Positions 1,319-31,857 of a stretch of 49,116 nt of DNA are shown piece after piece. Made by a program: the position numbers and the translations under genes. A model generated the notes under the pieces. It saw only the letters and a list, made by a program, of their open reading frames with translations. It made no database searches and had not been told where the DNA came from. The DNA lies in the IMG/VR virus record IMGVR_UViG_3300023174_000246, positions 1-49,116 of that record. The stretch is one strand, 5' to 3'. The stretch's first letter is position 1, and each line of letters begins with the position of its first letter. The stretch comes from a virus.

Positions 1319-1849
1319 TTACGAACTAGTCAAATTTTCAAGATAATAACCACTATATGCAAATGATACTTGGCATGTAAGTGGTGTGACATCTGAAATA
1401 TTTGTTTCAAATTGTATAGCACCTAATGATGTTGGAAAACAATCTTTCAAATGAACTGCAAAAAATGGTTTAGATGAATTATTTAAAACAACCAAAGTTG
1501 CATCTGAATAATTATCTGGATACTTTTCGTATCTATTTGAAAAATTTACAGTTGGTGGAATTTTAATTAACCAATCATGTAATTGTTTCCAGTTTGACAT
1601 ATCTTCACTTAATGCAAATGACATATCAAAATTATCATAAGTCAATCCTCCCATCGGTCTACGAAGAGGTGTAGCAAATGGTGTTGGTTGTATATATTCA
1701 TTTATTGAAATTCCTGGTAGATTTGCTGCTTGGCAAAAATAAACTATATGTGGAATTCTATGAAATACCACACGAAACTTATTTGCACTTAATGGATTAA
1801 GTGTTTGTGGTTCTCGTGCTGTTATTGATTGATATATGATATTATCCAT
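1319..1849 (-). CDS. Tail-tube-like protein (gp19/gp54 fold)
   Basis: A 176-residue virion protein related to the tail-tube protein encoded at 9834-10625. Shared blocks: YFCQAANLPG here against FFCKAATLPS in gp19 (early strand), then FP/WP-x-x-(L/V)-(G/A)-A-(I/V)-Q and a closing Q-V-(S/T)-F-x-Y-S-x-Y. T4 has two proteins of this fold, gp19 (tube) and gp54 (the base on which the tube polymerises); this one may be a gp54-like initiator or a tube cap. In many marine T4-like phages the slot between gp23 and uvsY is given to gp3 (tail completion); I see no clear T4 gp3 likeness. A terminator and a CATAAATA motif precede it, so it probably has its own late transcript. No Shine-Dalgarno. Confidence 0.75.
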   Translation of the reverse strand: MDNIIYQSITAREPQTLNPLSANKFRVVFHRIPHIVYFCQAANLPGISINEYIQPTPFATPLRRPMGGLTYDNFDMSFALSEDMSNWKQLHDWLIKIPPTVNFSNRYEKYPDNYSDATLVVLNNSSKPFFAVHLKDCFPTSLGAIQFETNISDVTPLTCQVSFAYSGYYLENLTSS

Positions 1850-1854
1850 ACAAC

Positions 1855-1862
1855 TATTTATG
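1855..1862 (-). promoter_or_regulatory. Late-promoter-like motif CATAAATA before tail-tube-like gene
   Basis: The minus strand reads CATAAATAGTTG, fitting NATAAATA. It lies between the gp23 terminator and the ATG at 1849. Normal T4 late spacing puts +1 on or next to the A of that ATG, implying a leaderless message. The position just after a terminator supports a real promoter. Confidence 0.5.
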
Positions 1863-1871
1863 CAAATGATA

Positions 1872-1895
1872 AGGGGAGGTCTTTCGACCTCCCCT
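1872..1895 (-). terminator. Rho-independent terminator after gp23
   Basis: A 10-bp perfect stem (arms AGGGGAGGTC and GACCTCCCCT) closed by a GAAA tetraloop on the minus strand, followed by a broken T-run (TTATCATTT). It sits 22 bases past the gp23 stop. It is very GC-rich against the AT-rich background, and GNRA-type loops are common in phage terminators. It should end the capsid transcript and may protect its 3' end. Confidence 0.88.
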
Positions 1896-29250: not shown

Positions 29251-29916
29251 TTAGACCTCATCAAAATCAAAGAAATTGACTTTGACATCCTTAATGATAC
29301 TAGAGGAATTTCTGACGGGACCATAGAAATTTGTCTTGGCAGTAAACTGTAGATCCCAGTTTAATACTCTAGTATCCTCTGAAAAACTTTCATTGTACAC
29401 TTCATTGGGAATTACTTGATTAAGTATAATGGGAATATCTACTTTTTCTAATGAGTTATCGAGAACTTTTGGTTTTATAGTGATAGTAAAATCGGGAACA
29501 AAGAATGGGAGAATCTGTTCTACAATTTGAAGACCATCATCGATATTTCTTGTATAAATGTAAAGTTCAAAGTCTATATTGTAGGGAACATCTTCATATC
29601 GATATTGGAATGTTACTTCATCATTTGTTCCAATTTCTTGCTTCCATCTTTTGTTTAATGAATTTTTCTTTCTTTCAGCGTCATAACTTATACCAGCGAT
29701 TGAGAATCCCATTCTTGGTAGAACGGTTTGAATCATGGTCTTATCAATATCCAAATTTAAACGATGAATAAATTTTTCCTTTGGAGAATAAATTAATGGT
29801 ACTTTTATTTTTTTAGTAACACCTTCATCGGTTCTTTCAATATAAATGTTATTGAAAAGAGTACCGAAAGCGGTTACTAATTTTCTTGTTGTTGCGTGAT
29901 AAAAAGTACTAAACAT
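29251..29916 (-). CDS. gp15: Tail terminator / sheath stabiliser gp15
   Basis: Hexamer that caps the finished sheath and tube and docks the tail to the neck. 221 residues (T4 272). Family blocks: FYHATTRKLVTAFGTLFNNIYIER at the N-terminus, KVPLIYSPKEKFIHRL, LPRMGFSI, YRYEDVPYNIDFELYIYTRN, and a C-terminal LNWDLQFTAKTNFYGPV. The ATG overlaps the gp14 stop in TAATG, confirming the start. Confidence 0.95.
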   Translation of the reverse strand: MFSTFYHATTRKLVTAFGTLFNNIYIERTDEGVTKKIKVPLIYSPKEKFIHRLNLDIDKTMIQTVLPRMGFSIAGISYDAERKKNSLNKRWKQEIGTNDEVTFQYRYEDVPYNIDFELYIYTRNIDDGLQIVEQILPFFVPDFTITIKPKVLDNSLEKVDIPIILNQVIPNEVYNESFSEDTRVLNWDLQFTAKTNFYGPVRNSSSIIKDVKVNFFDFDEV

Positions 29917-30611
29917 TAATAATTACCTTCCGAGAATGGGTCTTTGGTAGTGAAGTCAATAATATTAGATGCTTCTGTTTGTATTTGACTATTATCCTTG
30001 ACTTCTTTCTTATCCATAAAATATGTACCATCTTGTGCAGTGGTAATCTGCTCCATGAGTTCGGATTGAATATCATCAACCTTACTGAACCCTGTAGTGA
30101 TATTCTCCATAGAGTACTTATATAGTTCACAATCGATGCGGAAAGTATAGTAATCTCCTTGTTGATACATCATGTCATCGTTTTCAACAAATTTAATTTC
30201 ATATAAGTTATCTGATGTTGGTGATAGTGGAAAATAGATAATGTCACCTTCCATCGGTCTGTTCATCGGATAAAGACGACCAGTAATTTCTGGTAGTTTA
30301 AATACTTCTTCTCTGAATCGTTTCTTTGAAACTACTAAAGTAATATTATCATTTACCTCCATACCGAATTTACTAATCATATCTCTTGTACCTTCAAATC
30401 CTTTTGCATTCTTTAGATACATCTCAATAGAGAATGAATTCTTTAATTTGCCATGTTGATTATCACCAAATAAAGTATCTACCTTATCGGTAGTCTTTAC
30501 AATATAAACAACATCAATACCATGCATCTTGATGGCTTCTTCCGATAGATCTTCTATCAGATTTTGAGTTGGTTTATAACCTTGATGTTTAAAATATGGA
30601 TTTGTTGTCAT
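29916..30611 (-). CDS. gp14: Neck protein gp14
   Basis: Head completion/neck protein that joins the portal-gp13 ring to the tail. 231 residues (T4 256). Recognisable: N-terminal NPYFKHQGYKPTQNLIEDLSEEAI, HGIDVVYI, then FSKFGMEVND-like block (MISKFGMEVNDNITLVVSKKRF), RPMEGDIIYFPLS, and YQQGDYYTFRIDCELYKYS. Starts within 2 bases of the gp13 stop and overlaps gp15 (TAATG). Confidence 0.95.
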   Translation of the reverse strand: MTTNPYFKHQGYKPTQNLIEDLSEEAIKMHGIDVVYIVKTTDKVDTLFGDNQHGKLKNSFSIEMYLKNAKGFEGTRDMISKFGMEVNDNITLVVSKKRFREEVFKLPEITGRLYPMNRPMEGDIIYFPLSPTSDNLYEIKFVENDDMMYQQGDYYTFRIDCELYKYSMENITTGFSKVDDIQSELMEQITTAQDGTYFMDKKEVKDNSQIQTEASNIIDFTTKDPFSEGNY

Positions 30612-30612
30612 T

Positions 30613-31437
30613 TTAACCTACGAAAAATTCTGGTGGGAGTTCCCACTTGCTTTGCATTTCGTTTTCTAGTTTTTCTACTTCTACTGTGCCTTCTTGGAAT
30701 ACTTCTGTACCGTTTAGCGTAATTCCGCCGGGTAGTTCAACACCACCAAACTTCATCATATTCGATCCCCATTGTTGCTTAATGAGTGCGGTTGTATAAC
30801 GCTTCAGGGTTTTATCGTTATAGATTTCTGTATACTTAGTTGGATCTAATATTTTATATGCTTCAAACATAATATATTGACCCAAATATGATTGTTGCTT
30901 CCAATCCATATTTACATAAATTCTATTTGTAACACGACTAAATTCTAGAGTCTTCTCTGGAGTTAATAAGTCCTGTAACATCTGCATATGACTTCTGGTG
31001 ATTGCATATGTGATCAGAGACTGACTATAGGTGTTTGTACGAAGACCGTATAAGTCGTTTAAAGCGATCTGGTAGCGTGCGTCGAACATACCAGTACCAC
31101 CAAGGGTATCAAACAACTGGAATACTTTGGTTACTGATATAATAGATCTACCATCTGGATCTATTGCATCTGCTGCAACAATTGGAATGGTTGCATTTGG
31201 ATTTGCAGTAGTTGGTGATTTTAAATCAATATATCCATTATCTACATCCTTTTGTTCAATTTGTTTGCGAATGTAGACCTTTTCCACACCATCAAAGTGG
31301 TACTCTGCAAAGAATTGCAAAGCATCGTCAAGACGATCCTCTAATTGAGCATCATCGACATTTATTTGAATAACTGGATAACCCAATTTTCTAAGACAGT
31401 ATTCTTTTAATTCTTCTCTGCTGGCTGGTTGAGCCAT
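30613..31437 (-). CDS. gp13: Neck protein gp13
   Basis: Forms the first ring below the portal after DNA packaging. 274 residues (T4 309). Family features: SREELKEYCLRKLGYPVIQINVDDAQLEDRLDDAL (~5-40), ALQFFAEYHFDGVEKVYI, then FDARYQIALNDLYGL and YLGQYIMFEAYKILDP. The start codon directly follows a T-run and a hairpin whose 3' arm is the ribosome site (AGAGGAGA). A perfect late promoter sits within that hairpin, so gp13 is probably well translated only from its own late message. Confidence 0.97.
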   Translation of the reverse strand: MAQPASREELKEYCLRKLGYPVIQINVDDAQLEDRLDDALQFFAEYHFDGVEKVYIRKQIEQKDVDNGYIDLKSPTTANPNATIPIVAADAIDPDGRSIISVTKVFQLFDTLGGTGMFDARYQIALNDLYGLRTNTYSQSLITYAITRSHMQMLQDLLTPEKTLEFSRVTNRIYVNMDWKQQSYLGQYIMFEAYKILDPTKYTEIYNDKTLKRYTTALIKQQWGSNMMKFGGVELPGGITLNGTEVFQEGTVEVEKLENEMQSKWELPPEFFVG

Positions 31438-31444
31438 AAAAAAA

Positions 31445-31477
31445 TCTCCTCTTTATCTGTTATTTATAAAGAGGAGA
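31445..31477 (-). terminator. Hairpin with T-run that also masks the gp13 ribosome site
   Basis: A 12-bp perfect inverted repeat: arms TCTCCTCTTTAT (31477-31466) and ATAAAGAGGAGA (31456-31445) on the minus strand, 9-nt loop, then seven T's (31444-31438) ending at the gp13 ATG. As read by polymerase coming from the right it has the form of a rho-independent terminator. The second arm is the gp13 Shine-Dalgarno, so read-through RNA would have it paired. Confidence 0.85.
31461..31468 (-). promoter_or_regulatory. Late promoter TATAAATA within the gp13 hairpin
   Basis: A perfect T4 late octamer covering the loop and the inner part of the upstream arm. Predicted start near 31455 gives an 18-nt leader that lacks the upstream arm, keeping the Shine-Dalgarno free. 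Confidence 0.8.
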
Positions 31478-31500: not shown

Positions 31501-31857
31501 TTATTCTGAGAATAAGAAAGCAATTTTTAACAAATCATTTGCTGACATATTGACACTATCGAACTTGGAAACTGGTACTGGTGTCCAATTTAGTTCAATT
31601 TCAGTCTCTAATAGTTCACCAAATTCCTTGAGGAATGCTTGTTTATTTGCTTCTGAAACGGTTACACCTTGATTTTCGGTGGTTTCGCCGTGCTTAGAAA
31701 CCAACTTTACTCGCTGATCTTCTATTACCTTAATTTCTTCATTTAGGGTCTTTAGAAGCTTTGTGAGTTGGAAAGCAACGGAAGCAGGTAATTCTGCGTC
31801 TAAAAGCTTATTCATCACTGGAACAGAACTATAAATTTCAAGTAACTTAACCTTCAT
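31501..31857 (-). CDS. DUF1617-like small phage protein
   Basis: 118 residues, helical N-terminal half (LDAELPASVAFQLTKLLKTLNEEIKVIEDQRVKL) followed by a helix/strand half (FLKEFGELLETEIELNW). The pattern of LP-x-x-x-A-x-x-L-x-K-L, a long E/K helix with EDQR and a late EFxELLxxEVEL-type block resembles DUF1617 proteins, small unknowns from tail gene clusters of other phages; the match is from memory. AAGGAGA precedes the ATG. It is the last gene before the hairpin terminator. May be a tail-assembly chaperone or minor virion protein; not shown. Confidence 0.6.
   Translation of the reverse strand: MKVKLLEIYSSVPVMNKLLDAELPASVAFQLTKLLKTLNEEIKVIEDQRVKLVSKHGETTENQGVTVSEANKQAFLKEFGELLETEIELNWTPVPVSKFDSVNMSANDLLKIAFLFSE

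Follow-up and report, generated by a model that had tools for sequence, protein, structure and literature searches.

The gp13 leader and its surroundings

The window, by which we mean the whole analysed stretch of 49,116 nt, a genome fragment of an uncultured T4-like phage, carries on its minus strand a gene for a gp13-like neck protein (head-tail adaptor Ad2; 274 aa; 30613..31437; PHROG 211, E 3e-38), followed on the same strand by a gp14-like gene (29916-30611; PHROG 460/679) and a gp15-like gene (29251-29916; PHROG 227). The first junction is a 1-nt gap and the second a 1-nt overlap, and the two downstream genes are probably part of the same late RNA as gp13. Since they abut gp13 so tightly, a block on gp13 translation could reach both by translational coupling. 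On the upstream side, a co-directional gene for a 118-aa protein (31501..31857, minus strand; phrog_1401, function not assigned) ends 63 nt before gp13, and the ORFs upstream of gp13 resemble fibre and structural genes, which are probably expressed late.

Read 5' to 3' on the minus strand from 31477, the gp13 leader is TCTCCTCTTTAT - AAATAACAG - ATAAAGAGGAGA - TTTTTTT - ATG. All 12 bases of the 5' arm TCTCCTCTTTAT (31477-31466) pair with the 3' arm ATAAAGAGGAGA (31456-31445) around a predicted 9-nt loop, AAATAACAG (31465-31457). The 3' arm holds the gp13 Shine-Dalgarno sequence (SD), GGAG at 31449-31446, separated from the ATG (31437) by 8 nt that comprise one A and the T-run (31444-31438). 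A late-promoter-like octamer, TATAAATA (31468-31461), spans the inner 5' arm and the loop. These positions agree with an earlier note on this DNA, which had described a perfect 12-bp hairpin followed by seven T's, with the SD in its second arm and TATAAATA over the loop and inner first arm. In the predicted fold an A-rich flank, AAGAAG (31483-31478), pairs with the T-run so that the stem reaches 18 pairs; this pairing may lengthen the structure that locks the SD, and relatives of the T7 clade retain an A-rich flank. The RNA from 31500 to 31420 folded with -26.4 kcal/mol (z = -5.6), and none of 200 shuffled sequences folded as well.

By itself the late octamer carries no weight, as it matched 7 times in the window vs 5 times for a reversed control; its placement inside the hairpin is what matters. 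The ordered pattern TCCT / ATAAATA / AGGA occurred once in the window vs 0.06 expected, and the gp13 layout was absent from all other large-ORF leaders there. The element was likewise found once, at gp13, in seven of eight related records; the eighth (that of locus L038) has a gp13 hairpin with a variant arm missed by the pattern. A scan of the window against Rfam matched no family.

Among the other minus-strand leaders of the window, only that of the tail tube gene (1849-1894, minus strand) is strongly folded. Here a perfect GC-rich hairpin, GGGGAGGTCGAAAGACCTCCCC, is followed by CATAAATA five bases before the ATG, with no SD before the ATG, and a late RNA begun at the T4 spacing would have its 5' end on or beside the ATG, making it a leaderless late mRNA. 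This layout was kept in two relatives (L349, TATAAATACTTGT-ATG; L352, TATAAATACCCTAT-ATG), and L350 and L351 have a longer leader with an SD. A candidate leaderless late mRNA was also seen before gp13 of Pelagibacter phage HTVC008M (L089:2950-2982), which reads GCATAAATAGTAGTATT-ATG with no SD.

Conservation and covariation of the hairpin

Searching IMG/VR with gp13 yielded 79 related loci. In 49 of these (L008-L056, all environmental, gp13 64-100% identical) the hairpin, the late octamer and the pairing of the SD were kept without exception, with the octamer appearing in related leaders as N(A/C)TAAATA. The stem sequences varied among these relatives (CTCCTC/GAGGAG, CTCCTTATA/TATAAGGAG, CTCCTTGATT/AATCAAGGAG, CTTTGATAC/GTATCAAAG). 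By tblastn, all 49 loci carry the phrog_1401 gene on the upstream side of gp13, which indicates that the lock travels with this gene junction; at gp13 loci beyond this group tblastn did not find it, the match in L057 being at chance level (E 0.31).

Because the SD was out of register in some rows of the MAFFT alignment, covariation was measured on a gap-poor subset of 12 rows, and a register-anchored count was added. In the 12-row alignment, 99.1% of stem cells were paired vs 49-62% when the arms were slid, four of nine stem pairs showed changes on both sides, and the covariation score was 0.418 vs 0.173 for shuffled alignments, a value that none of 500 shuffles reached. Among 31 distinct leaders, Watson-Crick pairing was 77% in register vs 33-37% when slid, a comparison that favours register 0 to a degree since each leader's own fold set the register. 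As a control for this bias, only the 5' flank was shuffled, with the promoter and SD held fixed; 0-9 of 200 shuffles per leader hid the SD equally well. This indicates that pairing, and not the promoter, is the reason why the 5' arm is kept. The earlier note had raised the possibility that related phages keep the SD and not the opposite arm; in the 49 loci the opposite arm was retained, with compensatory changes.

The clade-to-clade differences also bear on the idea that a repressor of the late promoter uses the inverted repeat as its DNA operator, the RNA hairpin being incidental. The repeat is symmetric over the promoter, and I-TevI is known to bind its own promoter at an operator overlapping the late promoter (PMC2988022). 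However, the arms differ by clade (CTCCTC, CCTTATA, CCTTGATT, TTTGATAC) with pairing kept, which leaves no fixed binding site, and the SD forms one of the arms in every case. G-U pairs opposite the G's of the SD point the same way, weakly, as those G's cannot change. We consider an operator very unlikely. Even less credible is a processing site for RNase III or another nuclease that would generate the mature gp13 mRNA by cleavage and not by a new start. The closest clade would offer such an enzyme up to 18 pairs, but stem length is variable, with the contiguous stem down to ~7-9 pairs in some relatives, and ATAAATA was invariant in the aligned set despite lying mostly in the loop.

A T4 gp55-like late sigma factor was encoded in five of six related records (E 1e-18 to 1e-22), one of the five being a 118-kb record whose gp13 is 86% identical.

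More distant relatives gave a different picture. In many loci with gp13 40-44% identical (L060, L062, L064, L068-L071, L075-L081) the hairpin begins at the octamer and extends downstream, with SD accessibility in the predicted late RNA of 0.02-0.51; as the SD is not clearly exposed there, they were not counted as the same device. In all of these except L075, the layout upstream of gp13 is TATAAATAGTCCTATAG...CTATAGGACTATTTTTTT, and a late RNA would retain part of the stem. L059, L061, L063 and L065-L067 have the late promoter and no hairpin. No such lock was seen in the cultured phages P-SSM2, S-SRM01, Melnitz, DLP_6, Cr30 and HTVC008M, and in cultured Mosig the lock is weak at most (8 bp, SD accessibility 0.40 vs 0.88). 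In L075 (1880-1953), one palindrome occurs three times before gp13: two copies are divergent promoter-like TATAAATAGTCCC sites, and the third lies close to the start codon. Since the middle one is able to pair with the copy on either side, a two-state leader would be possible.

Predicted opening of the SD and the possible role of the T-run

T4 late transcription starts six bases after the octamer. Late RNAs were modelled with starts at this spacing, which in the window gives ~31455, the position the earlier note had named, with the purines at 31456 and 31454 equally possible. The predicted start lies past the 5' arm, which would be present only in RNA arriving from upstream, and the predicted late RNA lost this arm throughout the L008-L056 group. 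When read-through and late leaders were folded, as the earlier note had proposed, median SD accessibility was 0.0003 in the former vs 0.59 in the latter (43 leaders, including the poorly opening 40-44% group). Within the window, accessibility rose from 0.00 to 0.55-0.56 for any start from 31458 to 31453. Depending on the setting, the late-leader value was 0.55-0.83, remaining below 1 because of predicted weak pairing with the coding sequence. Locks were weaker in L031, L034, L043 and L054, with read-through accessibility of 0.09-0.20.

We believe, with a probability of roughly 0.85, that the element works as a switch like those of T4 gene e and I-TevI, allowing translation only from late RNA. 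This reading draws on the sequence, the predicted fold, conservation, covariation, the single copy per genome and the late sigma homologue in relatives. Read-through RNA from the upstream gene would contain both arms and fold, hiding the gp13 SD. Late polymerase, its promoter being spread over the 5' arm and loop, would start at ~31455, and the resulting RNA, having no 5' arm, would form no hairpin and would expose the SD on a leader of ~18 nt. The earlier note's proposal that the ribosome site is locked and that a late start within the hairpin opens it is well supported by conservation and compensatory change. We infer the start site, the read-through, the translation block and any termination at this leader from these features together.

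The same note had placed a terminator in the element as well, and here the evidence divides. A stable stem with T7 directly behind it scored +28 on a d'Aubenton-Carafa-type scale, and the T-run could serve as the U-tract of an intrinsic terminator. The U-tract was not conserved with the hairpin, however. Of the 49 lock loci only 14 have T6-T7 behind the stem (exactly T7 in 13 close ones, T6 in L022); T5 was present in 4 and at most T3 in 31, with two or fewer consecutive T's in 29 of the 49. The T5 group scored +10, and three lock-bearing relatives tested that have no T-run scored -29 to -56. As the T-run is lost in most lock-bearing relatives, the function that is conserved is the lock. Termination is likely a function added in one clade, and we give about even chances that the T-run hairpin also terminates part of the upstream RNA in the closest clade. 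Of the three activities that the earlier note had combined, the lock and its octamer are conserved, and the terminator is plausible only in that clade. Where a terminator operates, late RNA, not containing the 5' arm, would escape it together with the lock.

These data also address whether the element is mainly an operon boundary, i.e. a terminator that ends the upstream unit and contains the late promoter of the next one, the hiding of the SD being a by-product. The 12-bp stem with T7 has a score similar to that of the T4 gene 9 terminator (+35), T7 is exact in the 13 close loci, and in the same genomes the tail tube gene has a terminator-like hairpin ahead of its late promoter. Yet the SD is paired in all 49 loci, including the 29 with hardly any T-run, the score turns negative in the relatives that have none, and a consensus terminator scan did not list the gp13 hairpin (the scan allows loops of up to 8, and the loop here is 9). 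We regard a boundary as the main function as unlikely.

For a late-only switch, the reason to silence read-through RNA at gp13 is not obvious, since the upstream neighbours look structural. Those neighbours are probably late, unlike the early read-through case that provides the rationale in T4. The element might insulate the neck genes from the baseplate and fibre genes, as the earlier note suggested.

Relation to T4 leaders and occurrence elsewhere

An SD hairpin combined with a late promoter has been described for T4 e, soc, 49, I-TevI to III, segB and Aeh1 mobE (PMC3014915, PMC2988022), and the mechanism is established for T4 e (PMC3014915) and I-TevI (PMC2988022). The T4 precedent of genes e and 49 had been quoted correctly in the earlier note. 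In the leader of T4 gene e, encoding lysozyme (McPheeters 1986, as reviewed in PMC3014915), the SD lies in the 3' arm of the hairpin and TATAAATA in the 5' part, as at gp13; the long RNA is locked and the late RNA open (PMC3014915). Gene e differs in being a lysis gene reached by early RNA and in having two late octamers, whereas the gp13 element has one octamer, precedes a neck structural gene and, in the close clade, carries a T-run spacer. The late RNAs of I-TevI, I-TevII, I-TevIII, segB and Aeh1 mobE likewise start without the 5' half of the SD hairpin (PMC2988022), but these are homing endonuclease genes and the gp13 gene encodes a core virion protein. T4 soc and 49 hide the SD or start in a long-RNA helix with the late octamer in its 5' part (PMC3014915); their stems and genes are different, and they have no T-run. 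The T4 gene 9 boundary also joins termination to a late restart at a gene junction, but there a terminator-like hairpin and the late promoter after it stand side by side, and the SD is outside the hairpin.

Under the same analysis as the gp13 leaders, the T4 e, soc, 49 and I-TevII leaders showed the layout; the T4 gene 13 leader had no late octamer and a different hairpin. As far as sequence can test, the gp13 element is of the T4 e / I-TevI kind in every feature. In marine T4-like cyanophages a late promoter NATAAATA has been reported (PMC2984593). We found no report of gp13 with a late-promoter SD hairpin in the openly accessible literature, although this does not prove that none exists.

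A scan of IMG/VR for CTCCT...TATAAATA...AGGAG gave at least 99 distinct matches. Among the matches listed, 33 had a stem of at least 7 contiguous pairs and a correctly spaced ORF, compared with 3 of 91 among the matches listed for a scrambled octamer, AATTAATA. The genes behind the listed TATAAATA matches included gp13 (several clades), the terminase large subunit (L142), a baseplate hub gene (L162), a gp25-like baseplate wedge gene (L111), a head maturation protease (L141), tail tube genes (L094, L097) and homing endonucleases (L098, L148). As such matches precede virion genes, the device is probably used on virion genes elsewhere; stems before some of them are short. In L171 (4005-4640), separate leaders with TATAAATA in an SD hairpin stand 578 bases apart, one before each of two adjacent small genes.

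Tentatively, and with somewhat less than even confidence, we suggest that late-promoter SD hairpins commonly precede the genes for core virion functions (neck, terminase, baseplate, protease, tail tube) in uncultured T4-like phages and are not special to lysis or homing genes, and that in one clade the hairpin has become fused with a terminator, so that a single 40-base element would provide termination, translation block and late restart. A classic T4 control device, known from a handful of genes, here stands before a core virion gene, and throughout a large family of uncultured phages selection on RNA pairing has conserved the lock at gp13. Its breadth and purpose thereby become testable, including why a neck gene should be silent in read-through RNA, and TATAAATA inside an SD hairpin offers a searchable signature that predicts late genes in metagenomic phages.
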